IMG/VR virus record: IMGVR_UViG_3300036851_000187
Location: 1-36,080 of that record
Direction: 5' to 3' (one strand)
DNA from: a virus
DNA length: 36,080 nt
The notes below the pieces were generated by a model. It searched no databases. It had not been told where the DNA came from and saw only the letters and a program-made list of their open reading frames with translations. This document shows positions 12,060 through 28,545 of this stretch, piece by piece. Every line of letters starts with the position of its first letter. Position 1 is the stretch's first letter. Both the position numbers and the translations under genes were made by a program.

Positions 12060-12359
12060 TCAACAAGCTCTAACCTTTAGCTTTGCGCAATAGTCTTTGT
12101 TCTGACCTAGACTGGTAACTATGTTGAGCTTTACCTCATAGTCTTGGTCGATAACTCCACCTGTAGCCTTGCTCTCTACGAACCTACCATTTATAGCTGC
12201 TGCACCCCATACAACATGAGATCCTCCAGTGGGAGTAGAAGATACTGTCGCAGTTGTAATTGTCTCCCCTGTAGCAAGATGGTCTGCCGGTACCTCCCAT
12301 GGAAAGATACTAGCCTCAGTAGGCGTCTTGAGGAACTCTTCTGCCGCCCATGTTGCCAT
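12060..12359 (-). CDS. Phage fibre-tail adaptor-like protein
   Basis: A 99-residue beta-rich protein starting MATWAAEEFLKTPTEASIFPWEV. Its layout (Trp, a GETITTATVSSTPTGG strand pair, then DYEVKLNIVTSLGQNKDYCAKLKVRA) resembles small Ig-like phage proteins called fibre-tail adaptors, which link fibres to the tail tip. It lies directly after the tail fibre group in expression order. The DNA here is less GC-rich than the terminase genes, so it may have come from elsewhere. A GGGAG site lies 9 bases before the ATG. Similarity is from memory. Confidence 0.5.
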   Translation of the reverse strand: MATWAAEEFLKTPTEASIFPWEVPADHLATGETITTATVSSTPTGGSHVVWGAAAINGRFVESKATGGVIDQDYEVKLNIVTSLGQNKDYCAKLKVRAC

Positions 12360-12689: not shown

Positions 12690-13304
12690 TTACCTTTCTT
12701 GTCCCCTGTTGTTGGTTGGCTCTCCCAAAACGCGCTGTGTTGGCCACCCAGCATGCACCCTGTAAAGGATGGTCCTCAGCTTGATCCCAGTGCGCTTTGC
12801 CCAGGAATTAGCCGACATGGTTTCGCCGTCCATCGTGAGCGGCACCCTACCTCCGCCCTTATGGCGTTGTGGTTTTGTGAGGGCCTTCTCCACAGACCAT
12901 CCAAGGCAATCCAGCCGCGCCGATATCGTAATCCTGTTGATTCCAGTTTTTCTTTCCCAGTCTACAAGGTCAAGTGTTGTGCCGTTAAGAGTGAGAAGTC
13001 TTACGCGACGGCTGTTGTATGACTGCTGTTTTGGCGTAGCCCATCGCACGTTGCCTGGTTCGTAACCGCGATCGTTGTCGATTCGGTCTATCGAATGCCT
13101 TGGTGTTGGAGCACGGCCCACGTGATCAAGAAACGCCTGGAATGAGCCGCGCCATTCGGGACAGACCGAGATGCCTCTGTCGGCGTAGTTCTTTCTGTCT
13201 TTGTCCGTGACTGGTCGATGGCATCTATCAATCATGTGAGCCCAGGCACGGTATTCTTTTGTCTCACCAGAAGCCAAACAATGACCGTGTTGCAGTTTTG
13301 CCAT
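12690..13304 (-). CDS. HNH homing endonuclease with two helix-turn-helix repeats
   Basis: This 204-residue protein has an N-terminal nuclease of the AP2/HNH type: RHSIDRIDNDRGYEPGNVRWATP (about 69-91), where His70, Asp73, the Asn residues and the downstream RWAT motif match the family of phage homing HNH enzymes. Two related 43-residue modules follow (about 104-147 and 155-197), each starting LTLNG or LTMDG, with a WERKTG or WAKRTG turn and a final GWSVEKAL or GWPTQRVL. These look like duplicated DNA-recognition helix-turn-helix units. It lies between tail-fibre genes, a typical place for a mobile homing gene. It would cut at a target site lacking the insertion. Confidence 0.8.
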   Translation of the reverse strand: MAKLQHGHCLASGETKEYRAWAHMIDRCHRPVTDKDRKNYADRGISVCPEWRGSFQAFLDHVGRAPTPRHSIDRIDNDRGYEPGNVRWATPKQQSYNSRRVRLLTLNGTTLDLVDWERKTGINRITISARLDCLGWSVEKALTKPQRHKGGGRVPLTMDGETMSANSWAKRTGIKLRTILYRVHAGWPTQRVLGEPTNNRGQER

Positions 13305-13310
13305 TTCGAA

Positions 13311-13730
13311 TCACGAACCCCCTATCGAGATATCAAGATCACCTGCCGGCACCTTTGCCGTATCGCCGTTCAGGACGGGCTTCGCTACGGTGAGAGCCTT
13401 GAACCCAAGGAACGTGCCTGCTGTGGCCGCATCGAAGAACACCATGTGGGTCAGGTTGACCGCAGAAAGCCAATTCGCCGTTGCCTGCGGGAACGCCTGT
13501 TCCGCGTTGGTGGTGTTAGCCGATGACGCAGCGGCATCGAACTCAGCAGCCGTCACCTGAACGCGGGCGTAACCGTCGCCTGTCGATGGCTCCGTTACGT
13601 TCCCTCCGGCTTTCGTTGGCGTTGTGGACGAAAGCCCTATCCATGTAGCGTTGGCGGTACGAGCCGCCCATGTCGCCTTTGTGACGAAATGGTCCAAAAT
13701 ACTATTGTCGATGGCTGTGCTGAAAGGCAT
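13311..13730 (-). CDS. Small tail fibre-like protein
   Basis: The ATG at 13730 has a GAGGA site 5 bases before it, giving 139 residues. The sequence (MPFSTAIDNSILDHFV, TWIGLSSTTPTKAGGNVTEPS, GDGYARVQVTAAEFD, NAEQAFPQATANWLSAVNLTHMVFFDA) matches the short phage tail fibre or gp53-like proteins in which a GYARV strand and a FPxATANW strand recur. It is probably a trimer at the tail tip. It is the last gene before the HNH insertion and follows the giant repeat protein, whose stop codon TGA lies inside its ribosome site. Confidence 0.65.
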   Translation of the reverse strand: MPFSTAIDNSILDHFVTKATWAARTANATWIGLSSTTPTKAGGNVTEPSTGDGYARVQVTAAEFDAAASSANTTNAEQAFPQATANWLSAVNLTHMVFFDAATAGTFLGFKALTVAKPVLNGDTAKVPAGDLDISIGGS

Positions 13731-13737
13731 TTGTTCC

Positions 13738-16700
13738 TCACTTCTTGATCGTCCATGTACGGCCCCCTTCGGGGTGCCATGTACGGCCTGGGCTCTTCGG
13801 TCTCCAGGTACGCCCACCCTCTGGACGCCACGTGCGCCCTGGGCTCTCTGGCCTCCACGTGCGCCCACCCTCAGGGCGCCAAGTATCTTTTATTCCTTCG
13901 ACGAACTCTGGAACGCTCGTAACCGTGATATCAGCCAATAGACTCGCGAGCGCTTGGAGGTTCGCGGCAATGTTCGCGTCCCTGCTAATGCTTGCGGCGA
14001 GAAGCGCGTCTGACACCATGGACACGAGGATGCCGCGGTCAAGATTGACATTGGCTGATAGATTAGCGTCACCTTGCAGAGCTGCGGCAAAACCCCTGTC
14101 AATCACTACAGCCGCAATAAGGTTCGAGTGCCCTTGTAGACTCGCAGCGAGTCGCCTATCCACGCTCAAGAGCGCGGCGATATCGGCAGTGGAGTTCAGG
14201 CTCGCGGCAAAGAGCTTCTGCTCGAATACGGTGAAGTCGGCGGCCAAATTCGCATCGGCCGTCAAGGCGGCAGTGATCCTCCGGTCCACCTTGACCACCG
14301 AGAGCAGGTTCGCGTCCCCCGACATGGACGCGGCAATGCGCCTGTCAGCGGCAAGCGAGTTCACGAGGTTCGAATCGGCCTGTAGGGCCGCTGCCATTCT
14401 CCGATCCACGTTCACAAAGCTCGCAATGTCTGCCGTAGCGAGCAGGCTCGCGGACAGATTCACCTGACCGTCTATCGTGAGCGCCGCTTCGAGGTTGGCG
14501 TCGCCCTGGAGCGTGACGGATAGATTCCTGTCAACCTTAACTATGGTGCCGAGGTTAGCGTCACCTGTGAGCGAGGCCGCAAGCGGCCTGTCGGCCTTGA
14601 GAATGGCGCCAATGTCTGCAGTGGCCGTGAGTGCCACTTGAAGACGCTTATCCTCGATAATAAGCGCTGCGAGGTTGGCGTCGGCTTGGAGCGCGGCCGT
14701 AATGCGCCGATCCACCTGAACGAGAGCTCCAAGGTTCGCATCGGCTTCGAGTGGCGCCGCGAGCCGCCTGTCTACGTTAACGAGTGAGAGGAGATTCGAG
14801 GTCGAAAGGATGCTTGCCGCTATCGTCCGATCCGCCCTCAACATGGCAGCGAGGTCAGCCGTGGAGGTAAGAGCAAGGGCCAGCGGCCGATCCGCATTGA
14901 CCTTTGCTGCAAGATCCGCCGTGATCGTCATAGAGACAGCGAGGAGCTTCTCGCTTATCGCCGGGAAAATGGCGGCTTCAGCCAGACCACGTGACCAGAA
15001 TTGTCTCGTGCCAGTATCGTTACCGGACTTCCTCGCCCCCCTGAAGACGAGCCCTCTTATCCAGAACTTTTGCGAGCCCTGCGGGTCTGAACCGCCGGTA
15101 GGACTAGTGACATCGATACTCGATACGATATTCGCGTCCCCGATAAGGGACACGGCAAGCGGTCTATCAACGTTCGCAAGCGACTGCAAATCTCCAGTGG
15201 ACGTTAGAGCGGCCTGGAATCTCTTGTCCTCGATGATCCTTGCGGCGATATCCGAAGTAGCCTGGAAGGCGATCGCCAAGGCTCTATCGACGTTAATGAG
15301 CGATGCATGGTCTGCGGTCGCCTGGAGATTTGCTGCAATCGCCCTATCGACCCTTGCCATGGCGGCAAAGTCGGATGTTGCGATGAGGCTGACAGCGAAA
15401 GTGACCTGGCCCTCAACGGTCAACGATGCCAGTAGGTTCGCATCGGCTTGGAGTGCCGATACAATTCTTCTGTCAACGTTCAGAAGACACGAATAATCAG
15501 AGGTCGTAGCAAGGTTAGCAGCTATAGCCCTGTCCACCGCTGCCATAGCAGCAAGATCCGCCGTCGCCTGGAGGATCGCCGCTATGGACCTATCCATACG
15601 GGCCACGGCGGCAACGTCTGACGTTGCGACGAGGCTGGCCGCTATGAGCCTATCCACCTGTGCCGTTACGGATATGTCGGACGTAGCGACGAGGCTTGCG
15701 GCGAAGGTGACCTGACCTTCGACTGTTATAGCCGCAAGCAGATTAGCATCAGCTTGGATCGTCGCGACCAGTCGCCTATCGACGCTCACTAAGGCGGAGA
15801 CAGTTGCGTCGGCGGTAAAGGTCATTGACAGCGGCCTGTCAACGTTTACCCTTAGATCCAAGTCGGCAGTGCCGGATAGTGCAGCCTGCAGACTCTTGTC
15901 CTCTATGAGGCGCGCGGAAAGGTTGGCATCGGCCTGAAGAGTCGCAGCAAGTGGCCTATCAACTGCGGTCGAAACCGCAAAGCTAGAGTCCGCTTGGAGC
16001 GCAGCTTGGATCTGCCTGTCAGCATTGGCGTTTACAACAATATCTGCAGTGCAGGTCATGGAGGCGGCCATGAGCCTATCAACGCCGCCGGCTGCAGAGC
16101 CGAACGCCAAGTAGAGTATCTCTCTTGATGTAGCGTCTACTGTAGTGTTGTTGATAGTGAACCCTGAAGCATCCATGGAGACGAAGTCGGCAGCCGCATC
16201 TACGGTCGGTGTGCCCTCCGTCATCAGCTTCAGGCATTTCGCCCTATCGAGATCAGCGTCGGTAACGCTGAAATTCTGACCGTCTAAGTCCCCGGACCAT
16301 ATCGACGCTCTCTGCGTAGAGCTAACTGCAGCGCCGATTGTCAGACGCGAAAACGATCTAGATATGGTGGAGGATGCAAGGTTGGTGCTCTTGAAGAGAA
16401 CCAACTTTGGAGTAAAACCTACGCCTGTAATAGCTTGATTGCCTGTCGATGTGTTCTGATTGAAAGCCCCTACATCAAATTGCCCGCCCTTAATGGCAAT
16501 GTATCCAACCAGAACTGCCGTGGTACCCACCACGGACCAGTTGAGCGTGAACCCATTCGTATCGAAGGAGACGAAGTCCGCTACGCGCGGTATTGTGCCG
16601 GTTCCGCTCAGGTTGTTGAATGCCGAATCTGTTCTCTGGTAAGAATATGTATCTGAGCTTCCCTGCGCATCCTCGCGAAAGAGAGTACTGCTATTTCTCT

Positions 16701-17277
16701 TGGTCGTGCTTCTTATGAAGTGGAGACCAAATGGCGAGTTGGTCGCATTGCCAACCGCTGTGGGGAATGAGGTCGATACGCAATCGAACAGAATCAGCGC
16801 GTCGGGTTGAAAGCCAGGGTCCGTTACAGCAGAGTTGCCGGTGGCTGTTGGGGTCGAGAACTGCCCGACCTTTGCGTTTGTTACGTCGCTTCCACCCAAA
16901 GCTACGTAGTTGACTATGCGCGCTGTGGCGTCAACCGTTGTCCAGTTGACGGTGAAGCCGCCAGAGTCCATGGAGACGAGGTCGGCCTCGGCTGCTAGTA
17001 CCGGCGTCCCGGCCGTGAGGAAGCTGATGCACTTCGTGTTCTCGTAACGGCGATCGCATTCTGACGTGCCGACGTTGTCCGTCGAATTCACGGCGACGAC
17101 GCCGCGCTGCGATGAGGAACTAGCAGCCCCAAAGAACTTAGACGCTCCGACAGCGCTCCCATCTGCAGTAAGGTAGTTACCAAAGAAGATCACGAGCTTC
17201 GGTTGAAAACCAACGCCGGTGATTGCCTGGTTTCCCGTGCTTCCTGGTTGAGCGAAACTACCTATGAAGGCGTCCAC
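13738..17277 (-). CDS. 1179-residue repeat protein, likely tail tip or spike
   Basis: It starts with GTG at 17277, preceded by GAGG. Residues 1-400 contain three related blocks of about 130 residues; each starts with a phrase like TGNQAITGVGFQPKLVIF and ends with FTVNWTTVDATARIVNYVALGG, suggesting a beta-sandwich repeated three times. Residues about 403-1122 are about thirty copies of a 20-residue unit with the pattern VDRrLAAsLqADANLlAavk, interrupted once by a Gly-rich segment with FWIRGL and FWSRGL. The end (about 1130-1179) is a tandem TWRPEGGR/TWRPESPGR repeat. The alternating hydrophobic pattern suggests a long beta-rich stalk. It lies in the receptor-binding block. I do not recognise the repeat family. 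Confidence 0.72.
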   Translation of the reverse strand: MDAFIGSFAQPGSTGNQAITGVGFQPKLVIFFGNYLTADGSAVGASKFFGAASSSSQRGVVAVNSTDNVGTSECDRRYENTKCISFLTAGTPVLAAEADLVSMDSGGFTVNWTTVDATARIVNYVALGGSDVTNAKVGQFSTPTATGNSAVTDPGFQPDALILFDCVSTSFPTAVGNATNSPFGLHFIRSTTKRNSSTLFREDAQGSSDTYSYQRTDSAFNNLSGTGTIPRVADFVSFDTNGFTLNWSVVGTTAVLVGYIAIKGGQFDVGAFNQNTSTGNQAITGVGFTPKLVLFKSTNLASSTISRSFSRLTIGAAVSSTQRASIWSGDLDGQNFSVTDADLDRAKCLKLMTEGTPTVDAAADFVSMDASGFTINNTTVDATSREILYLAFGSAAGGVDRLMAASMTCTADIVVNANADRQIQAALQADSSFAVSTAVDRPLAATLQADANLSARLIEDKSLQAALSGTADLDLRVNVDRPLSMTFTADATVSALVSVDRRLVATIQADANLLAAITVEGQVTFAASLVATSDISVTAQVDRLIAASLVATSDVAAVARMDRSIAAILQATADLAAMAAVDRAIAANLATTSDYSCLLNVDRRIVSALQADANLLASLTVEGQVTFAVSLIATSDFAAMARVDRAIAANLQATADHASLINVDRALAIAFQATSDIAARIIEDKRFQAALTSTGDLQSLANVDRPLAVSLIGDANIVSSIDVTSPTGGSDPQGSQKFWIRGLVFRGARKSGNDTGTRQFWSRGLAEAAIFPAISEKLLAVSMTITADLAAKVNADRPLALALTSTADLAAMLRADRTIAASILSTSNLLSLVNVDRRLAAPLEADANLGALVQVDRRITAALQADANLAALIIEDKRLQVALTATADIGAILKADRPLAASLTGDANLGTIVKVDRNLSVTLQGDANLEAALTIDGQVNLSASLLATADIASFVNVDRRMAAALQADSNLVNSLAADRRIAASMSGDANLLSVVKVDRRITAALTADANLAADFTVFEQKLFAASLNSTADIAALLSVDRRLAASLQGHSNLIAAVVIDRGFAAALQGDANLSANVNLDRGILVSMVSDALLAASISRDANIAANLQALASLLADITVTSVPEFVEGIKDTWRPEGGRTWRPESPGRTWRPEGGRTWRPKSPGRTWHPEGGRTWTIKK
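13747..13884. repeat. Tandem 24/27-bp repeat encoding TWRPEGGR
   Basis: At the 3' end of the giant repeat gene, units of 24 and 27 bases alternate, giving a 51-bp period over about 2.5 copies. They encode TWRPEGGR and TWRPESPGR in turn. Copies differ mostly at synonymous or single positions, suggesting recent slippage or conversion. Trp, Arg and Pro regularity suggests a short extended collar at the end of the protein. Confidence 0.75.
13912..16085. repeat. About thirty 60-bp tandem repeats inside the giant gene
   Basis: Successive units of 60 bases encode the 20-residue pattern VDRrLAAsLqADANLlA. Some copies carry a 7-residue insert such as TVEGQVTF and then lack the VDR start. Copies have diverged at the DNA level, so the array is old, but the period is maintained. 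It covers about 2.2 kb, interrupted near 14970-15120 by a non-repeat segment. Confidence 0.85.
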
Positions 17278-17286
17278 TCATGGCCT

Positions 17287-19872
17287 CTAAGTAAATGCCC
17301 AGTCGTCGCAATTGACAACCCCGTTGACATTGCTCGAATCGACGACGAACTCAAAGACCCCGTCATCGGTCGCTGTTGGGGTCGCCACCCCAGCAGCATT
17401 CAACTGTTGCCACAAGGTATCGTCCACGGCTTCGACCCCGATCAACGTATCGGCAGTAACACCCATAGCTGGATTCTTCTTCAGCATGATTCGCGGCCGG
17501 GTAGCCTGGGTGCCATTGGCCCCTGACTTCTTCACCCAAACCTTGGGTATGGTGGACTGGCCGTTTTGAATCGCGATGGCAACAGGGCTCGACTCGAGGC
17601 GCGTCGTCGAGTTCGGCGTGAGCTTCTCCGTAGGCTGCGCACCGCCGGTTCTTGGTGTGGTCACACTATCGAGCTCGACTATGCCGTAGGGGAAATGGGT
17701 CTTGTGCTGACCGTTCGTCTGGTCCGCGCGCTGCATGCGGATCCACGATCCGGCAATCATGCTCGCCGCGCCTGCGACTTCGGTGGTCGATCGAAAGGCG
17801 CAGTTCTCGAAAAGCGCCTGGACGAAGGAAGAGCCCCCGATTTCTATGTCTCCAACACTATGCGTTGTCTTCCCGCCAGAATCAGGGCTCGTTCCGAATG
17901 TAGTGTTGATAAAGGAGAGGCCGGCCCTTGACCCGTCAGCAATCGAGATACCAGCCTCGTGTACTGCACCACCACCCGTCTTACTGTCCCCGTCGATCGA
18001 TGCATTCTCCACAACGAAACTGCCGACAGAGCACTGGGTCCCGTACATCTTGATATTGTCGTAGCACCCAAAGAGTATCAGCCCCTTACCGCCGGCGAGG
18101 CCCGTGCCGTTGAACGTGATCCCCATGAGTGAGCCACCTGGTTGCAAAATGCATATCCCGCCCTGGCTCGTAGCGTCCGCAGAGCTAGCCCGGTAAATCG
18201 TCGTATTAGTGAAGGTGAGGTTCTTCACCTGGCTCTGGAAAATGATCCCAGCGCGGCGCGAGTTGTGGATCACGAGCCCCGTCACTGTCCAGGCCGTTGG
18301 GTTATTCGCGCGCGTTACTGCGAGCCCGTAGAAGCCGCCTACGATTGTGTTCGAATCGAAGGTTACTAAGTCCCCAAGGATCACGTTATGAATGGCGGAG
18401 GAGGAGACGCGCTGAAGGAAGACATTCCCCGTGATCGTGATCGTCCCTACGCCCGTCGTCTGAGGTATGGTGAGCCCGTTCCCGCTACCTGCAGGAGCCG
18501 CGGTCCTCCCAACGAAGTTGAAGGTCACGCAGTTCGTGATAGAGACGTTCGCGACTCCGGCTCCGGAGAGGAAGAGCCCGTTACTTGAGAACCCGTAGAA
18601 GGAGCAGCGATCGAAAGTCGCCGAGCCCGTCGTCGTCTCGATCTCGATCCCGCGCTTCCCGGGAACCGTAGTCCCGAGATCCGCGAACGAGGCCCATGAA
18701 GCGTTGAAGACTGCCGTCGGATAAAGCCGGACGTATCCCACAACCCCCGTTGTCGGGGTGACGTGGGTCCCCTGCTGCGTAGCACGGACGCGGACATTGC
18801 GCGTGAGGAGGACCACCTCTCCTTTCACGTCGTCAGTGCCCTGGTGAGCGAATGCGGTCGCCCCTACCGGGAGCGATGTCGTCCCGGCTCCTGTCAGGGT
18901 ACGCGCTTCGCATTGCTGGTCCGTGTCCACCCGGACCGTGGCGGCGATAGCTATCAAGTCGCCCGAGGCCCAGCCCGTATTGTCGGCCACGTCGAGGCTC
19001 GTGGATCCGGCCGCCTCGTCGGCAGTGAGCTTCGTTCTATCGAAGGTCTTTGTCGCGCCGTAGGCGTTCCACGTCCCGCGACACTCGATCCCGGCCGTAC
19101 CGTCCGCGCCCAGCGATGTAGAGCCGAGCTGAATCTCGCAGCTCGAGGTCGAGGGCATCCTCGTCCCGCTCGTCCCCATGTTGAGCGTGCCGCCCTCGGA
19201 GATCGTGAGCACCCCCACGGTCCTGAGAATGTAGTTCGTGGATGCCGCCGTGAGGGACTCGAGCGTCCCGCCGCTTCCAATGTCGATGGGTCCATAGTCA
19301 ACCCCCGCCGTCGTATCGATAAAGGCCTTCCGGGTGTTCTGCGTACCGGCTCCGGTCTTCTCCCCGCAGATCCAGAATCGATCGGCCGCGGCAAGGGAGC
19401 CCGGGGACGTGACGAGGCGGAGTAGCCGGTTCCAGTTGCTCGCCGTGCCGTTCCTCACCATCGTCACCTGGGAGCTCGCCGAGGTGGAAAGACCGATGGC
19501 GTAGCTGTTCCCGGATGTGAGCGGTCCTATGGTTCCCGAGAATTTCAGAAAGACCCAGCCGCCATTTAGCGGCAGGTCGGCAACGTTGACCGTGACAACA
19601 CTGCCTGCGACATCGGAGGCGGGAGAGTTCGTCTTTCGGACAACGAGCCTGAAGGTGCCAGAGGGGGATGCGGACCTCGATAGGACTTGAACGAGCACCC
19701 CGTCGTAAGTCCCTGAATCGCCAGTCCACGTTGAAGAGTAGAGTACAGTCGTCGTGAGGAGCGTCGAGAGCACGCCGGCAATCTGGGGCTGCCCCGTAAC
19801 GACGCCGCAGCTGTACCACGACCCTACGGCCGAGAAGTTCACTGCATCCGAGCGTAGGATCAGATTCGCCAT
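17287..19872 (-). CDS. Large G8-like / right-handed beta-helix tail protein
   Basis: An 861-residue protein rich in Gly, Ser, Thr and Asn. Residues about 1-190 form a beta-sandwich-like head (MANLILRSDAVNFSAVGSWYS). About 200-340 resemble a G8-type domain, with GVLTISEGGTLNMGTSG, GIECRGTWNAYG and ALAIAATVRV-like strands. About 380-720 contain irregular helix-forming turns of the pectate-lyase type (ATFDRCSFYGFSSNGLFLSG, VTFDSNTIVGGFYGL, LTFTNTTIYR). The end is a globular beta domain. Such proteins are tail spikes or host-surface-binding fibres, sometimes with hydrolase activity; I see no certain active site. A TGAGG site precedes the ATG. Confidence 0.7.
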   Translation of the reverse strand: MANLILRSDAVNFSAVGSWYSCGVVTGQPQIAGVLSTLLTTTVLYSSTWTGDSGTYDGVLVQVLSRSASPSGTFRLVVRKTNSPASDVAGSVVTVNVADLPLNGGWVFLKFSGTIGPLTSGNSYAIGLSTSASSQVTMVRNGTASNWNRLLRLVTSPGSLAAADRFWICGEKTGAGTQNTRKAFIDTTAGVDYGPIDIGSGGTLESLTAASTNYILRTVGVLTISEGGTLNMGTSGTRMPSTSSCEIQLGSTSLGADGTAGIECRGTWNAYGATKTFDRTKLTADEAAGSTSLDVADNTGWASGDLIAIAATVRVDTDQQCEARTLTGAGTTSLPVGATAFAHQGTDDVKGEVVLLTRNVRVRATQQGTHVTPTTGVVGYVRLYPTAVFNASWASFADLGTTVPGKRGIEIETTTGSATFDRCSFYGFSSNGLFLSGAGVANVSITNCVTFNFVGRTAAPAGSGNGLTIPQTTGVGTITITGNVFLQRVSSSAIHNVILGDLVTFDSNTIVGGFYGLAVTRANNPTAWTVTGLVIHNSRRAGIIFQSQVKNLTFTNTTIYRASSADATSQGGICILQPGGSLMGITFNGTGLAGGKGLILFGCYDNIKMYGTQCSVGSFVVENASIDGDSKTGGGAVHEAGISIADGSRAGLSFINTTFGTSPDSGGKTTHSVGDIEIGGSSFVQALFENCAFRSTTEVAGAASMIAGSWIRMQRADQTNGQHKTHFPYGIVELDSVTTPRTGGAQPTEKLTPNSTTRLESSPVAIAIQNGQSTIPKVWVKKSGANGTQATRPRIMLKKNPAMGVTADTLIGVEAVDDTLWQQLNAAGVATPTATDDGVFEFVVDSSNVNGVVNCDDWAFT

Positions 19873-19879
19873 TTACGCC

Positions 19880-21646
19880 TCAGCAAAGCATCTCCTGCCC
19901 GACTGCGGCGGCAGGATCGCCAGCACGGAGATAGGCTAAAAAGCCCTCGACAATCGCCGGCAGGTGGATCTCTGAGGCCGTAGGAATCTGCGCCTTTGGA
20001 ACGAGCACGAACGAGCCGCCGCCATAGTTAGTCGCACTGATGAGGATCGCAAAGCTCACCCTCCAATCTTCACCGGCATCCTCGACTCCTGTAATCTTGA
20101 TACGTAAGTTGCCGCTGATCGGCTCCCTACGCTGTAGCGCCCCTATGTCGATAGCTTGCGGAAGTGCGCCAAAGGGGAATGACCGCGGCCAGCCCTTGCC
20201 TTTCATCAACACGCCGACTCTCCAGTCGCGCCCGGTCTCGTTCGTGATCCGCCCGCGAAACTCAGGATCTGCTATAACGTCGTTCGGGCCAGCGGAGATA
20301 TTCGTCAACTCCCTATCGCTACGGTAGGCATTATAGTCCGCCATGGATACGGCAATGTCTGAGCCTGCCAACGTCTGAATATCGGGGTTCATGTCATAGA
20401 AGATGTTATTCCGTATGATGGCGTTCCTGAGGACTGCAATGTTCGTCTCGACGTTGATACCTATGGCGCCCTCTTCGAAAACGTTATTCTCAATCAATGC
20501 CCAGCGCGCCGTAGCCGCGGTCTTGAATTCGATGTGCTCCGCAAAGTTGAAGAAGCAACAAGAGCGCACTATGAGGTTCGGAGAGCCCGTGATCTCGATG
20601 CCCGTATGCGCTGTAGATGTGACGTGCGATAGATGCGAATTCTCGATGAGAAGAATGGTCGGGGACCCGGCGCAGAGTATCGCAGAATCGGAGCAATCAC
20701 GAATGCTGAGACTATGGAAGTGCAACCTGCCCGTGACACTGGAAATAATCGAAATCCCATAAGTCATGACTTCGCCGGTAGTGTTGAAGTCACAATCTGA
20801 AATAACAATGTCCGTCGCGTTACTCGTCTCTAATACAATACCTGCAAGACAGTTCGAGAAGGCTAGGCCACTAATCGACTGAAGTGCGCTCGATAGCTTG
20901 AAGATGTCGTTAGTCGCGTTGCCTTTGATGAGGGGCTTCCCGCCACCAGACCCGCGTATCGTGATTCTGCCGCTCGTAAAATCCCCAGCGCCCGCGAGGT
21001 TCCTCACTGCCGTCGTCGTGTAGAACTTGTCCTCGACGTAGGCGAAGTCGATGATCCAACCTGGCTTCACGTCCGCCCAGAGCTGGGCAGAGTTATCGAT
21101 GTCGAGCCGGTATCCGCCGACAGCCCAAGCGACAGACGTGTTGACGATGAGCGAGTCCTCGATGGTGAATTGCCGCGGATCTTTAACTGCGGCAGTAGTG
21201 ACTGTCGTCCCGGCATTGTCTTTAAGAGTTATCTGCGCCCCGGAATCGACGGTGAGGATTTCCGAGTAGAGATCGACGCCCCCCGCGCCCGCCCCGATGA
21301 CGCGTACCACGTCGTCGGTTGCCATGCCAGTCGTGGACGGCATCGAGGTCACCTGAGGGAGCCCGCTCGTCATATTCCCCTGAGAACCTTGATCTGTGTC
21401 CTTGACTGCCGTGATCTTCGACCAGCGCCGGCCGCTCGCTTGCTCAAGCCAAAGGGAATGGAGCCCGGTAGTGTCCACTCCGGAGAAGTCCGGGGATGTG
21501 CTATCGAAGAACCCGACGCGGGTACCGCCGGCGGAGACCCTGTTCCGCGCAATCGTCCCAAATTGTGCCGTCTCGGGCCCGGCGCCGGAGGCCTCCGTGT
21601 CCGAGCCAAGGAGGATGTGGAACTTGATAGTCGGGTGGTTAGCCAT
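19880..21646 (-). CDS. Right-handed beta-helix tail spike-like protein
   Basis: A 588-residue protein. The middle (about 230-470) is a clear parallel beta-helix with repeated short strands and Asn-rich turns: ISGLAFSNCLAGIVLE, IVISDCDFNTTGEVMTYGISI, LLIENSHLSHV, LIVRSCCFFNF and IIRNNIFYDM. The Asp/Gly turn DPEFRGR near 480 is often seen at the end of such domains. The first 200 residues are a beta-rich head, and the last 100 carry RIKITGVEDAGEDWRVSFAI. It most likely forms a trimeric spike that binds or cleaves surface polysaccharide. Catalytic residues cannot be assigned by eye. Confidence 0.75.
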   Translation of the reverse strand: MANHPTIKFHILLGSDTEASGAGPETAQFGTIARNRVSAGGTRVGFFDSTSPDFSGVDTTGLHSLWLEQASGRRWSKITAVKDTDQGSQGNMTSGLPQVTSMPSTTGMATDDVVRVIGAGAGGVDLYSEILTVDSGAQITLKDNAGTTVTTAAVKDPRQFTIEDSLIVNTSVAWAVGGYRLDIDNSAQLWADVKPGWIIDFAYVEDKFYTTTAVRNLAGAGDFTSGRITIRGSGGGKPLIKGNATNDIFKLSSALQSISGLAFSNCLAGIVLETSNATDIVISDCDFNTTGEVMTYGISIISSVTGRLHFHSLSIRDCSDSAILCAGSPTILLIENSHLSHVTSTAHTGIEITGSPNLIVRSCCFFNFAEHIEFKTAATARWALIENNVFEEGAIGINVETNIAVLRNAIIRNNIFYDMNPDIQTLAGSDIAVSMADYNAYRSDRELTNISAGPNDVIADPEFRGRITNETGRDWRVGVLMKGKGWPRSFPFGALPQAIDIGALQRREPISGNLRIKITGVEDAGEDWRVSFAILISATNYGGGSFVLVPKAQIPTASEIHLPAIVEGFLAYLRAGDPAAAVGQEMLC

Positions 21647-21655
21647 CGCTCAGCA

Positions 21656-22339
21656 TCAGGCCACCCCAAGCCGCGTCTTAAGCGCCGCAACGGATGCCAA
21701 AGGAGGAATCCCTTCGCGCACGAACATCTCCGCCAGGCAGAGCACCTCGTGAAGCACCTCGGCACGCATCTGCCCGTTACGCGTGATCCTGATGTTCCCG
21801 CCGTAGTAGAAGGCGTCGTCGGCGGTCGCCGCGGACTTGCAGCGCACTCGCAGGATCTTGAGGCCTGCGGCCATCGGGCTCGTGGCCGGCGTGAAGGTCT
21901 GGGTCTGGTTTTTGTTGTCGCCGACTCCGGACGTCGAGAGGACCCCGATCTGCGCCGAGTCCGTCTCGTTCCAGAGCTGCCAATCGAGCTGCCCCGCGGA
22001 GAGCTGGTTATAGCGGAGGTTGAGCTCGAGTCCCGTGATCCCGAAGCACTCGAGCCGCACGTAGCCGAGCGACTTCGCGGCCGGGATCGTGTCGTAGGCC
22101 GTGCCTATGTTGGTGAGGGTCACGCCGCCAGGGAGTACGTAGAGTTCCGGCAGCGGAAAGAACTTGGCCTTTAGATTGTCGAGGTCGGTCTCCTCTGAGG
22201 CGGAGAGCGCGAATGCGGCAATGACCTCAGCGCGAGTCATCTTGCCTCGGTCCCATTCTCCGAGGCAGGCCATGAATTGATGGACAGGGATCTTCGGGGT
22301 CGTCTCGTCTGCCGGCACCAATCGATCCCAGAGACTCAT
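21656..22339 (-). CDS. Tail-associated protein, unknown function
   Basis: A 227-residue protein. The first 70 residues are helical (IPVHQFMACLGEWDRGKMTRAEVIAAFALS, then ETDLDNLKAKFF). A beta domain follows (LPGGVTLTNIGTAYDTIPAA, VRLECFGITGLELNLRYNQL), and the end is helical (VLHEVLCLAEMFVREGIPPL). It overlaps the nuclease stop by 4 bases and is followed by the beta-helix gene, so it belongs to the tail-spike operon. I do not recognise the family; an N-terminal helical part plus beta domain would fit a spike anchor or chaperone. Confidence 0.65.
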   Translation of the reverse strand: MSLWDRLVPADETTPKIPVHQFMACLGEWDRGKMTRAEVIAAFALSASEETDLDNLKAKFFPLPELYVLPGGVTLTNIGTAYDTIPAAKSLGYVRLECFGITGLELNLRYNQLSAGQLDWQLWNETDSAQIGVLSTSGVGDNKNQTQTFTPATSPMAAGLKILRVRCKSAATADDAFYYGGNIRITRNGQMRAEVLHEVLCLAEMFVREGIPPLASVAALKTRLGVA

Positions 22340-22740
22340 GCCTCGAGCTCCGGCTTGACGTTCGGATCCAAGGTGGCGTGGCCAGCATCAACGAGAGCAA
22401 GGCCCACGTCTTTTCCGTCAGCGAATACGCGAGCGAGCCAGCGCCCGTATTTGTCCCCGGCGTAGGTCCAGAGCTTGACGACCTTGCCGACGGGAAGGAG
22501 TTGCGCAAGGAAGGCTTTCGCCTCGAGTCCGCGGGCCTTCTCGGCGCCCACCACCTCCGGCGCATTCACGCCGTAGAGGCGGAATGGAGCCGTGTAGGTT
22601 TGATAGAAACCCACGTCCACCTGAAACCAGGCGGTATCCCCATCCGTCACGCGGACAACTTGCGCCCTGTCGTATCTGTACCGGGCCGTGGTGAGGGTTA
22701 CACCCCTCGGCTCGTCCGCATCATCGTAGAGGAGCGGCAT
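22336..22740 (-). CDS. Staphylococcal nuclease-like (SNase) thermonuclease
   Basis: A 134-residue protein with the SNase core: VTDGDT (31-36), FRLYGVNAPE (53-62) and DKYGRWLARVFADG (96-109). Arg54, Glu62 and Arg100 correspond to the catalytic Arg35, Glu43 and Arg87 of the Staphylococcus enzyme, and Asp35 to a calcium ligand. Asn59 replaces the second usual Asp ligand, a change seen in some homologues. There is no signal peptide, so it probably acts inside the host cell or is carried in the tail. Its ATG has no clear ribosome site and lies 44 bp past the palindrome at 22784-22805. Its stop overlaps the tail-associated gene start. Confidence 0.88.
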   Translation of the reverse strand: MPLLYDDADEPRGVTLTTARYRYDRAQVVRVTDGDTAWFQVDVGFYQTYTAPFRLYGVNAPEVVGAEKARGLEAKAFLAQLLPVGKVVKLWTYAGDKYGRWLARVFADGKDVGLALVDAGHATLDPNVKPELEA

Positions 22741-23000: not shown

Positions 23001-23984
23001 TTACGGTGCCCCCAGCATGTCCGCGATCGTGTTCCCCGGCACCGTGCCGATCTGCCAGTAAGTAAACATGACCTCGCGCACGTATCCGACCGTGAAGTCG
23101 CCGCTCTTCCTCCCCGGGTTGTAGCATCCTATGCTCGGGTTCAGGTCCTGGACCGTCTCGCCGTTCAGAATCCTCGGGTTACAGGTCGGGCCGCTGTGAT
23201 TGAAGGGCGTGAGCACGCCGTCCCTGTAGACCTTGAGGAACCCGTCGGAGCCGGGAGACCACTTGACGTGAATCAGGATCTTCGACTCCGAGCGCGGCGG
23301 CCTCCCGATGTTGATGGTCTTCGTCTCCCTACCCTTCACCGCGAGGACACCGCGCATCACCTCGCCGTCGGCGGAGGTCTTGATCTGCTCGAAGCTGAAC
23401 GGCGGCGAGACGATGCCGCCCTCGTTTCCCTGGTGGATCTGTCCCGTGACGCACTTCCGGTTGCCCCACTGAGAATCGAAAACGTACGTCGGCGGCAGGT
23501 AGATCCCGAAGGCGTAGAAGCGCTCGCTTCCGATCGGGTCGCGGCGCGGGGTTCCGCCACCACCGACGATGGCGCGCATCACCATCTGCGCCCGCATGTC
23601 CGTGAGGTCGCTCGTCGCCTTCCAGCGGAAGAGGCACTGACCGTTCGCCACGCTCACAGTCCCCGCTTCGCCGTCCTTGTCGATGTAGAAGACATCCATG
23701 TTGAGCGGCTTGTCGAACCGCTCATCGAGGATCTTGGGAGCGGTGCCTGTTGGAGGCGGAGGCGGAGGAGGAGGCGGCGTCACCCCGCCCTCGAGCTCGG
23801 CGATGCGCGCCTTGAGCACGTTGATCTCGGCCTGGAGCGCGGCCTTCACCGTGTCGCAGCTGCGGACTAACTCCGCGACGCGTTGCGCCAGTAATAGCTC
23901 AAGCTGCGTGATCTCGTCAGGGAGGAGGACGGAGGACTTTGCACGGGCCGCGATGGCGGCGAGTTGTTCTTCAATTGTTGGCAT
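23001..23984 (-). CDS. Polysaccharide lyase-like tail protein with coiled-coil stalk
   Basis: A 327-residue protein in three parts: an N-terminal helical coiled coil (about 25-66: LELLLAQRVAELVRSC and EINVLKARIAELEGG), a linker of about ten prolines (70-78) and a C-terminal beta-jelly domain (about 84-327). The latter has the pattern of the heparin-lyase I-like polysaccharide lyase family: FYAFGIYLPPTYVFD, SPPFSFEQIK, ILIHVKWSPGSDGFLKVYRDG and CYNPGRKSGDFTVGYVREV. It would bind or cleave acidic host-surface polysaccharide and be anchored to the tail through its stalk. There is no signal peptide. Substrate and catalytic residues cannot be told by eye. Confidence 0.72.
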   Translation of the reverse strand: MPTIEEQLAAIAARAKSSVLLPDEITQLELLLAQRVAELVRSCDTVKAALQAEINVLKARIAELEGGVTPPPPPPPPPTGTAPKILDERFDKPLNMDVFYIDKDGEAGTVSVANGQCLFRWKATSDLTDMRAQMVMRAIVGGGGTPRRDPIGSERFYAFGIYLPPTYVFDSQWGNRKCVTGQIHQGNEGGIVSPPFSFEQIKTSADGEVMRGVLAVKGRETKTINIGRPPRSESKILIHVKWSPGSDGFLKVYRDGVLTPFNHSGPTCNPRILNGETVQDLNPSIGCYNPGRKSGDFTVGYVREVMFTYWQIGTVPGNTIADMLGAP

Positions 23985-25662: not shown

Positions 25663-26451
25663 TCACCTCCCCTCGCCCAGAACAGCCCATCGCTTCTGGA
25701 ACAAGGGACCAGTCAGCATGGGATTCTGCGGGAACTCCGCCGTTGGCAGTTTGGTCCTAATTTTCCTGTGCCATGCCAGGTAATCCGCCGGCGAGTGCAT
25801 CTCCTCCAGTGACGCCAGCGCCGCGAGTGTGAAGGCGCCGCCCGTGCCGGTTGAGAATGAATATTCGTCGTCCGTGGAACCTGAGAGCAAGAGCGATGCC
25901 GACGCAGCGAGAATGCGGCCCGTCGAGCGCAGGCCCGCAACAGCCTTGGCGCCCTTCAGCTTCTCGCCCTTCAAGAAGTTCTCGGGCGGCATGAAGCGAA
26001 CGCGCCGCTCGCTACCCTGCGGAGACGGCGCGAACCTGGACACGCTGCCGGAAAAACACGAATCGCTGATGAAGAGGACCCTCGCGCCCATGGCACGGGT
26101 GGAGAAGATTTCCCCGAGATCGTCGTCCACGAGTGGCCCCTCCGTGAACACGTCACTCGGGCAAAGGGCTTCGTCCCTGCCGTCTGCCTCGTCGCCGTCG
26201 TCATCGGCTAGCCACGTCCCGTGGCCCGAGTAGCACAGCACTCCGAGATCCCCGTACTTGAGCTTCGCCACGAGCTCGCCGATTTCAGCGATCATGGCAG
26301 CCTTGGTCGCGGCCGAGTCGAGAAGCGTCGTGACGGTGAAGCCGCGGGCCTTCAGGGCTTCGGCCCAGCGATTTGCGTCTATGACGCAATCTGGCAATTC
26401 TGAAGAAGTGCCACTGTAGTCTATTCCTATGCAAAGCCCATGCTTGCTCAT
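25663..26451 (-). CDS. Caspase-like (C14, metacaspase type) peptidase
   Basis: A 262-residue protein made of one caspase p20-like fold with no signal or membrane segment. The catalytic dyad is visible: His77 in LCYSGHGTW and Cys132 in ISDSCFSG. The Asp-rich loop DDDGDEADGRDEALCPSD (83-100) between them is typical of bacterial metacaspase or orthocaspase peptidases, which usually cut after Arg or Lys and often need calcium. The start CIGIDYSGTSSELPDCVIDANRW matches the family. It lies in a coupled chain with the methyltransferase before it (ATGA overlap) and the holin candidate after it, so it is a phage gene. Its target is unknown. A host-derived pro-death or a phage-defence role is inference. 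Confidence 0.88.
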   Translation of the reverse strand: MSKHGLCIGIDYSGTSSELPDCVIDANRWAEALKARGFTVTTLLDSAATKAAMIAEIGELVAKLKYGDLGVLCYSGHGTWLADDDGDEADGRDEALCPSDVFTEGPLVDDDLGEIFSTRAMGARVLFISDSCFSGSVSRFAPSPQGSERRVRFMPPENFLKGEKLKGAKAVAGLRSTGRILAASASLLLSGSTDDEYSFSTGTGGAFTLAALASLEEMHSPADYLAWHRKIRTKLPTAEFPQNPMLTGPLFQKRWAVLGEGR

Positions 26452-27110
26452 GATTCAGATCCTTTCGTTGTGAACGAAAACACTTCCTGGGAGAGACGCT
26501 TCGCTGCGATCTCGCAGTAACGTTCCTCGATCTCGATACCGATGGCCTTCCGGCCAAGGTCTTTGGCGGCACGGAGGGTGGTGCCGCTGCCCATGAATGG
26601 GTCGAGAATAACTCCGTCGCAGTCGGCTTGCTGAATGCACCATGCCATTAGCGCCACAGGCTTCTGCGAAGGGTGCAATGTTCCTTCGGAGGACCAGCGT
26701 GCCACGCCGTGCCACATTTGGCTGAACATGCGGACAGACTTCCTCGGTAGGTTTGTCCATGCAAGCTCACAGTCACCGAAACAAACCTCGGACACCTTGC
26801 CATCGCCGCGCTTGTTGAAGACGAGCCACGCTCCGTTGTCTTGCAGCCGTGAGGCAAAGTGATTGGCTCCCCAAAGCACAACACGCTTAAATCGAAGGAA
26901 TGGAGCTGGGTCGAAAGGCTTATCGTCGCCAATGACTCGAGGCCAGTCCTTCCCATTGCTGCGCCAGCCTTTGAATCCGCTGTAGTCTGTGTCGAGATCC
27001 ATGCCATACGGCGGGTCGGTAACGAGAACGTCTGCCTGGACGCTCGGCAGCACCTCTCGGCAATCCCCGTGGTAGATCGTGATGCCCCCGTGCTGGTAGT
27101 ATGGTTTCAT
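26448..27110 (-). CDS. Beta-class DNA methyltransferase (N6-adenine or N4-cytosine)
   Basis: With the ATG at 27110, coupled to the patatin stop as ATGA, the product has 220 residues. Motif IV DPPYG lies near residues 32-36, and motif I DPFMGSGTT at 170-178 comes after it, the order of beta-class amino-methyltransferases. HPSQKPVALM (146-155) is the usual segment preceding motif I. It transfers a methyl group from S-adenosylmethionine to adenine N6 or cytosine N4 in DNA. No restriction enzyme gene is next to it, so it is an orphan, commonly used by phages to protect DNA from host restriction or to change host expression. Confidence 0.9.
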   Translation of the reverse strand: MKPYYQHGGITIYHGDCREVLPSVQADVLVTDPPYGMDLDTDYSGFKGWRSNGKDWPRVIGDDKPFDPAPFLRFKRVVLWGANHFASRLQDNGAWLVFNKRGDGKVSEVCFGDCELAWTNLPRKSVRMFSQMWHGVARWSSEGTLHPSQKPVALMAWCIQQADCDGVILDPFMGSGTTLRAAKDLGRKAIGIEIEERYCEIAAKRLSQEVFSFTTKGSES

Positions 27111-28162
27111 TCCAGGAGAACCCTTGTCGCATCCGCCACGCCTGGAGGCCGATCCTCCCACCTACCTTCCGACACGAATCGTCTCCCAGCCTCGAATACC
27201 CGCCGCATCTCGACAGGAACAAACTCCTGCGCTCCGAAGTCAAGCGGCACGTAGTCAGGTATTCTTGCAAGCCTCCAGTCCACACCGAGATCCTTCGCCG
27301 TCGCGTAACTTTGCCAGAGTGTTCCAACCGCACTGGCGTTCGCCAGGACCTCGACGCTCCTAAGCGCGATAGCGAGAAGGTTCGGCTGGACGCAGACCTC
27401 ACCTACCGAGATTTGGCCGTTCAGGATGACATGGACCGTCAACTGCGCCCGGGAGCGCGCAAGCTCCAACATCGTTGCCCGCAGAAGCGCCTGCTCCCTC
27501 ACTCCGCCGTCGCAGTGATGGACCCCGCCGATGTATACTGCAGGATGGAGTCCCGGCACAGAGCACGAAGCCAGCAACACAGCACGGTAGGTTTCGTAGT
27601 CCTTCGCCTTAGCAAGCGCCACCATATCCCACGCTCGCATCCGTCCAGCGTCCAGGGAGACGGTTCCAACGAACATCGCGCGGCCACCGCTCTCCGCCGC
27701 GACCCTATCGATGAGCGAGTCCGGCACCTCCCGCGCGATGAGTTCGCGGAGCGGCTTCAAGGTGGTGAGGCTATCTGAGAACGGAACAGCGAGGATGGAA
27801 CGCGTGCGGAAGATGTCCGAGTTCGTCACGGTGGTGTACGTCTTGGCGAGAACCGCGTCATCTTCAGGCTGGCCCAAGAATGCATGGCTTGCGAGTAGCG
27901 CGCCAGTAGAGACACCCGTCACCACGCCATAGCGGGGCCTCTTCCCGGAGTCGCGTAGCCCCGTGAGGATGCCGGCAGTGAAAGCCCCACGGCTCCCGCC
28001 GCCAGAGATGACCAGCACATCCACGCTTGCCGCGTTCTCGAGCCGTGCCAGCGCCGCGCGCACTGTGGAGGCTTCGCCGCGCACGGCGGCCTTTGGCGGC
28101 GGGCACTCTCTTTGCGCGCAACCGACGAACGGCAGCCAGGCGCAGAGCCAGGCGAGCTTCAT
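27107..28162 (-). CDS. Patatin-like phospholipase lipoprotein
   Basis: With the ATG at 28162 (AAAGGAG before it) the product has 351 residues. It starts with a short signal sequence ending LPFVGC, which fits a lipoprotein with modified Cys15. The patatin core follows: oxyanion loop GGGSRG (54-59), nucleophile motif GVSTG with Ser85 and the catalytic Asp218 in HHCDGG. Such enzymes cut acyl chains from phospholipids using a Ser-Asp dyad. The lipid anchor would place it on the outer side of the inner membrane or in the outer membrane, suiting membrane breakdown late in infection. It overlaps both neighbours by 4 bases. Confidence 0.88.
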   Translation of the reverse strand: MKLAWLCAWLPFVGCAQRECPPPKAAVRGEASTVRAALARLENAASVDVLVISGGGSRGAFTAGILTGLRDSGKRPRYGVVTGVSTGALLASHAFLGQPEDDAVLAKTYTTVTNSDIFRTRSILAVPFSDSLTTLKPLRELIAREVPDSLIDRVAAESGGRAMFVGTVSLDAGRMRAWDMVALAKAKDYETYRAVLLASCSVPGLHPAVYIGGVHHCDGGVREQALLRATMLELARSRAQLTVHVILNGQISVGEVCVQPNLLAIALRSVEVLANASAVGTLWQSYATAKDLGVDWRLARIPDYVPLDFGAQEFVPVEMRRVFEAGRRFVSEGRWEDRPPGVADATRVLLE

Positions 28163-28545
28163 GGGGACTCCTTTAACTGCACTCCCAACATGCGGCGGAG
28201 CCGTGGCCACCAGCCAACGTGCTTTCTGGCTTGCTCCTGAAGTCGCTCCGCCTGCTTTCGTTCCCATTCCTTTCTCTCGTAATCGCTAATCTGCTCTTGG
28301 TAATCACTCGCTCTCTTCATGGCGCCATCGAGCGTCGTGAAAACGTCCGACTGATTCACTCCGAACAGCTCAAGCCCGCCAGTCTGGACGCCACACCGAC
28401 CGTTGGAGAGGTCCCACTCAAGCAATGTTCCCTTGCCGATTTTCACTCGGCTACAGTAGTAGCCGTCCCACGACCCATCAAACGTCTTGGTCACATAGTA
28501 GACCTCGGTGCCTATCAGCGAGACGTTATCTCCAACGTGAATCAC
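28159..28545 (-). CDS. Small protein with beta-barrel start and helical end, unknown
   Basis: A GTG at 28545 (AAGGAG before it) overlaps the upstream stop. The 128-residue protein begins with SH3-like strands (VGDNVSLIGTEVYYVTKTF, CSRVKIGKGTLLEWDLSNG, GGLELFGVNQSDVFTT) and then forms a long charged helix (DYEQI-type EQISDYERKEWERKQAERLQ) with a Trp-rich end. The start resembles small beta domains that bind nucleic acid or peptides. It is the last small gene before the patatin. Family not recognised. Confidence 0.6.
   Translation of the reverse strand: MIHVGDNVSLIGTEVYYVTKTFDGSWDGYYCSRVKIGKGTLLEWDLSNGRCGVQTGGLELFGVNQSDVFTTLDGAMKRASDYQEQISDYERKEWERKQAERLQEQARKHVGWWPRLRRMLGVQLKESP

Follow-up and report, generated by a model that had tools for sequence, protein, structure and literature searches.

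The window analysed here, a 36,080-nucleotide stretch of viral DNA (IMG/VR record IMGVR_UViG_3300036851_000187), encodes a protein that carries a long array of 20-residue repeats behind three larger N-terminal blocks. This locus raises the question of what structure such repeats build and what purpose the whole protein could serve on a virion.

Anatomy and setting of the array gene

An earlier note on this DNA had placed an open reading frame of 1179 residues at exactly 13738–17277. The frame exists and lies on the minus strand, which that note left unstated, and the opposite (plus) strand carries 25 stops over the same interval. The gene, its parts and its neighbours are as follows.

13738–17277, minus: array gene, whole (1179 residues; GTG start at 17277, TGA stop at 13740–13738)
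16090–17277, minus: N-terminal head of three predicted beta-sandwich blocks of about 130 residues each (residues 1–396; from alignment, AF2 and VIA)
15112–16083, minus: first half of the array, 16 units of 20 residues (residues 399–722), two of them lengthened by 2 residues
14960–15081, minus: central insert QGSQKFWIRGLVFRGARKSGNDTGTRQFWSRGLAEA, starting at residue 733, which the sister phage keeps while both flanking arrays are replaced
13924–14955, minus: second half of the array, 17 units of 20 residues (residues 775–1118), with two 2-residue expansions
13741–13887, minus: C-terminal tail with six TW motifs (residues 1131–1179)
13311–13730, minus: next gene, similar to the podophage GP4 fibre I protein gp80 (PF23140), its ATG start about 10 bases past the array-gene stop
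12060–12359, minus: gp77-like fibre-tail adaptor (PF23148; Pfam)
17287–19872, minus: right-handed beta-helix protein, the upstream neighbour (Pfam Beta_helix, just under the curated cut-off)
19880–21646, minus: second right-handed beta-helix protein
23001–23984, minus: protein with a polysaccharide lyase domain (PF14099)

The three 130-residue blocks described before are real, the first being 47% identical to the third and 33% identical to the second. What had been counted as about thirty repeats is an array of 33 units, in which 16 and 17 units flank a 50-residue insert containing QGSQKFWIRGLVFRGARKSGNDTGTRQFWSRGLAE from residue 733. A TVEGQVTF insert was said to occur often; it is present, but its frequency was overstated, as there are two exact copies and two relatives (TIDGQVNL and TVFEQKLF). 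Each of these marks a unit longer by 2 residues, and such expansions number exactly two per array half. The six TW motifs of the tail, which comprises the last 49 residues, are mostly RTWRPEGG or RTWRPESPG.

The surroundings of the array gene are an adsorption cluster, a location that suits a tail fibre or adsorption protein. Downstream, the gp80-like fibre gene is followed by an HNH endonuclease gene, the gp77-like adaptor gene and then the terminase, portal and capsid genes. Because the neighbours comprise beta-helix proteins, a polysaccharide lyase domain, a GP4-type fibre and a fibre-tail adaptor, the tail shaft proposed earlier is unlikely, and a fibre or spike is suggested instead.

The window has two other features of note. 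Small endonuclease genes are scattered amid the structural genes on the minus strand (205–774, 12690–13304 and 22336–22740), one of the endonuclease VII type, one HNH and another. At 25663–28267 (minus) lie three neighbouring genes, one for a caspase-domain protease (PF00656), one for an N6/N4 DNA methylase and one for a patatin-like phospholipase (PF01734) that also matches PADLOC phospholipase effectors; the trio is possibly a defence or host-takeover island. Its patatin region is kept in the sister phage described below (27105–28163, 90%) and its caspase region is not.

The repeat unit and its predicted fold

The array is far more periodic than chance would allow: at lag 20 residue identity reaches 0.309, whereas 200 shuffles gave no more than 0.146 at any lag. 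The units share a mean pairwise amino-acid identity of 37%, and where they use identical four-fold codons their third positions agree at 0.261, against 0.271 predicted from composition, while Tandem Repeats Finder run on the gene reports the C-terminal tail only. On these grounds the units are old, with a pattern held at the protein level. Recent tandem duplication or an assembly artefact is ruled out, as four-fold sites are saturated and Tandem Repeats Finder detects the tail only.

Within the unit, aliphatic or aromatic residues fill positions 5, 9 and 15 in 100, 100 and 97% of copies, the odd positions from 5 to 19 are essentially uncharged, and D and R occupy positions 2–3. Pentapeptide-repeat proteins, which form a right-handed quadrilateral beta-helix, have a period of five residues with the pattern A(D/N)LXX. 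The strongest identity lags of the array are 20, 40, 60, 62, 30 and 10, and lag 5 falls outside the top twelve, so the array is not of the pentapeptide-repeat kind.

Searches of the array and head against Pfam, PHROGs and NCBIfam gave no match that passed the cut-off (the best, from PHROGs, had E 0.012 across 19 residues), and the protein matched no named repeat family among PDB sequences. Pfam and PHROG models, those of the GP4 proteins included, do not match the array protein itself, and INPHARED, which covers cultured and deposited phages, has no match to the whole protein or to the L025 protein described below. The earlier view that the repeats belong to no named family is thus upheld in profile and sequence searches. 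To call them of an unrecognised kind is too strong, however, as the same unit occurs in an unrelated siphophage protein (L025), and other arrays, of 18–23-residue repeats, recur beside phage head domains.

L025 (IMG/VR 3300044783_000109), a siphophage, has the only other array of this type that we found (an unambiguous array-profile score of 31.6, against a null maximum of 2.4 ± 3.1), in a gene within the structural operon, between connector and tail genes. It shares the 20-residue unit and the TW..P C-terminal tail, and differs in its N-terminal head, which is made of two blocks of some 215 residues each, in its 20 units and in its phage type. Evidence linking the array protein and L025 to a 20-residue phage repeat of the commoner GxAG type is suggestive only: one such repeat (L032) matches in phase with p of about 0.007–0.01, a second (L015) gives p of 0.06–0.11, and a third (L031) shows no match at all. 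The loci L030–L034 were retrieved with an approximate consensus as the query. L031 itself encodes (200–880) another phage protein with 33 units of 20 residues, of the GxAG type, and an internal YRSFLAFWLGG insert. An array search of 296 Nitrospirota genomes was empty, a result that we regard as uninformative.

Alternating hydrophobic residues had been taken to predict a beta-rich stalk or solenoid. The beta-rich stalk gains support from the Kyte-Doolittle hydrophobic moment, which at 175 degrees (beta) stands above shuffles with z of 7.6 and 8.3 and at 100 degrees (alpha) lies slightly below them, and from an AF2 model of ten units built on a small alignment (pLDDT 86.1), in which 204 residues form 20 strands of a two-strand beta-solenoid rather than a disordered chain. 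Of the two results that the note had named as refuting its reading, a match to a described repeat family and a disordered prediction, neither arose. The curlin-like two-strand solenoid has two strands per coil of 18–23 residues, with side chains alternating inward and outward. VIA-align ranked CsgA first against this model (8c50; Z 19.5, rmsd 8.0) and 3p4g second (Z 15.9, rmsd 2.6, 193 aligned); Foldseek returned nothing at E below 0.001. The AF2 model agrees with the strong sequence alternation, but the solenoid itself is a feature of that model only, confident in three of five models, and AlphaFold2 gives confident but unrealistic beta-solenoids for perfect repeats (PMC11795689). Because of this over-prediction, the two-strand solenoid reading is provisional.

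The solenoid could instead be an AlphaFold2 artefact and the array an alpha-helical or disordered spacer, a reading that we consider unlikely. The abundance of helix formers (Ala, Leu, Arg and Gln), the known bias for perfect repeats and the two failed models of five speak for it. However, the moment is strong at 175 degrees and absent at 100 degrees, units that are 37% identical are imperfect repeats, and the buried stacked charges that mark such artefacts are absent from the array. Additionally, the expansions are of 2 residues, and the alternation is therefore preserved through them. Given imperfect repeats and a predicted core without charges, beta structure is likely, and we conclude that the array is probably beta-stranded with two strands per unit, which its sequence supports, the exact fold being a matter of prediction.

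The head, its relatives and array exchange

An AF2 model of the head, from a 19-sequence alignment, contains three tandem beta-sandwich domains (pLDDT 91.9, pTM 0.93). Its best VIA match is a single-chain C1q trimer (5hzf; Z 6.1, 226 aligned), and others include a single-chain adiponectin trimer (Z 5.3) and an APCbeta domain (Z 4.8); these span residues 1–397 of the model, at Z under 8, a range that the tool calls common. The C1q and adiponectin single chains and the APCbeta domain are each three-domain beta assemblies, and because the best matches are all of this kind they suggest a fused pseudo-trimer. The C1q/TNF-like domain is a ten-strand jelly roll that assembles as a trimer. Such weak fold matches, of modest Z, suggest a C1q/TNF-type trimer fused into one chain; Pfam and PDB sequences gave no C1q sequence match for the head. 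Its putative role is most likely to bind a cell-surface ligand.

Scanning IMG/VR with the alignment of the head gave 104 relatives, of which 80 were kept. Among these 80, 47 have fewer than 45 residues after the head and no array, while about a dozen carry periodic arrays, mostly with periods of 17–23 residues and very varied chemistry: one is RRRRRVAAAVAGVSSTAVTT-like (L081), another is built of 22-residue units with RVYAVPGESR motifs at their ends (L086) and a third has 18-residue units (L091). Beta alternation is not a general trait of such arrays, as none of eight others examined was strongly beta and two looked alpha-like. Other contexts differ further. The podovirus record MW202725 encodes a fusion in which the head comes C-terminal to a beta-helix, an Acidobacteria MAG has it within a protein carrying a C25 peptidase domain, and in a Nitrospirota MAG (L035, 7263–9212) a three-block head follows what we read as a pilin-like N terminus, a part without a Pfam hit. 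The head is a widespread, unnamed phage module joined to many kinds of repeat stalk.

Some of these relatives, and other array proteins, show features of separate interest. The N terminus in the Nitrospirota MAG looks type IV pilin-like, and its union with the head suggests a bacterial tip adhesin. Stand-alone heads (L047–L125) often close with short C-terminal motifs, RNLLGVGL and LLGVGS among them, that may serve as a virion-docking peptide. In many array proteins the C terminus consists of short repeats in succession (YRTVKTIVTQ, VHVEFDSDVQ, RVYAVPGESR and RTWRPEGG in L030, L032, L023, L086 and the window at 13741–13887), possibly a common docking tail.

A sister phage (IMG/VR 3300036851_000363, 34.4 kb) is colinear with the window, and long matches across the structural genes are mostly 84–95% identical, with the head at 91–92%. 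Nucleotide similarity ends at 16085, where the head ends, and returns at 12060. The array, its tail and four further genes (the gp80-like one, the HNH one, a small one and the gp77-like one) lie in the replaced stretch, whose sole similarity to the sister is the insert (14960–15074, 73.9% DNA identity). The HNH endonuclease gene mentioned above falls inside this exchanged cassette.

In place of the array, the sister carries a different, Ala/Pro-rich 20-residue repeat of the ATPAAAPATATAPDPTARVR type, without beta alternation and with a G+C content of 73% against about 60% nearby. Nevertheless it, too, has 33 units, two 2-residue expansions per half and the insert, and its protein is 1181 residues long against 1179. 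It is not a frameshifted copy, as tblastn of the protein against the sister DNA hits residues 1–398 only and a stretch read in six frames lacks the unit. Homology of the two arrays was also rejected: they match best when in register, but their profiles are not significantly similar (p 0.93). The same comparison between the L025 and sister arrays gave p 0.25.

The replacement of stalk chemistry while period, unit number and length are kept amounts to a natural experiment. One could read the array as a sequence-independent molecular ruler, in which entire stalks of unlike chemistry, beta type for Ala/Pro type, are swapped beside an unchanged head and central insert, about 33 units are kept, and length rather than sequence is selected. 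We consider this unlikely on present data, and with only two phages compared the equal lengths may have arisen by chance. The natural exchange makes what is selected in a fibre stalk (length, stiffness or surface) directly testable by array swapping.

A predicted fibre with an exchangeable stalk, and known systems

Taken together, the array protein is, in our judgement, probably a virion adsorption fibre or spike whose head binds and whose repetitive stalk can be exchanged. The three modelled beta-sandwich domains of the head would bind a cell-surface ligand, the array of 33 units of 20 residues would act as a replaceable repetitive stalk giving reach, and the C-terminal tail, with the gp80-like fibre and the gp77-like adaptor, would dock this stalk on the virion. 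If the stalk sets reach, its sequence would therefore be exchangeable and its length about constant, as in the one phage pair. Modularity of the head is supported by its place after a beta-helix, on a pilin-like protein and alone in 47 of 80 relatives, and interchangeability by the unrelated array on the sister's kept head and by the occurrence of this array type on another head in L025.

Most known tail fibres attach to the virion by a conserved N terminus and vary at the tip, and a conserved head with a variable array could also fit that pattern. The N-terminal head would then anchor to the virion, and the array and tail would point outward and be swapped for host range. That the sister keeps the head and replaces all that follows, including the next genes, is the classical tail-fibre pattern, and the head begins at residue 1 of a protein with no other anchor domain. 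We nevertheless judge this reverse polarity improbable, because in MW202725 the head follows a beta-helix, in the Nitrospirota MAG it caps the pilin-like protein, the stand-alone relatives consist of the head and a short C-terminal tail, and low-complexity arrays, for example of SPSASL, would presumably be poor receptor binders. Least probable is a head fibre or capsid decoration, a long capsid tether giving weak surface adhesion: the gp80-like protein also matches PHROG phrog_240 ('head protein'), the L025 array gene lies between connector and tail genes, and flexible capsid fibres are known in phage 7-7-1 (PMC12796354), but the fibre-tail adaptor, the GP4 fibre I homologues and the beta-helix neighbours point to the tail.

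The array protein has partial parallels in several known systems. In the podophage GP4 tail fibre set (gp80 and gp77; PF23140 and PF23148), both proteins have homologues directly downstream of the array gene. The predicted two-strand coil of the array resembles curli CsgA (8c50) and an Antarctic bacterial antifreeze beta-helix (3p4g); the likeness is to a predicted model only, at 7–12% identity, and we claim no kinship. The long tail fibre of Agrobacterium phage 7-7-1 (9rkv, PMC12796354) combines a beta-helical stalk with a triple jelly-roll head, much as the array protein is modelled with a beta-rich stalk and a triple beta-sandwich head. However, that fibre is a homotrimer with an N-terminal anchor and a C-terminal head, whereas the array protein has the opposite order, with all three head domains on a single chain.

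Marine phages carry fibre-specific repeats in their tail fibres and C1q-domain receptor-binding proteins (PMC3909814). The likeness extends to a structural gene beside fibre genes, to protein-specific repeats without sequence similarity and to a C1q-like fold proposed for recognition. In those phages the C1q domain sits in a separate protein by the tail fibre and is preceded by a more conserved N-terminal end, whereas here three beta-sandwich domains in one chain are N-terminal and stand directly before a 33-unit array. Phage fibre-specific repeats and C1q-like receptor binders are thus already published (PMC3909814). What is new is a unit without a family model, a single-chain triple head preceding the array and a same-length exchange, and the array units offer defined building blocks for stalks and may aid the annotation of many hypothetical phage genes.
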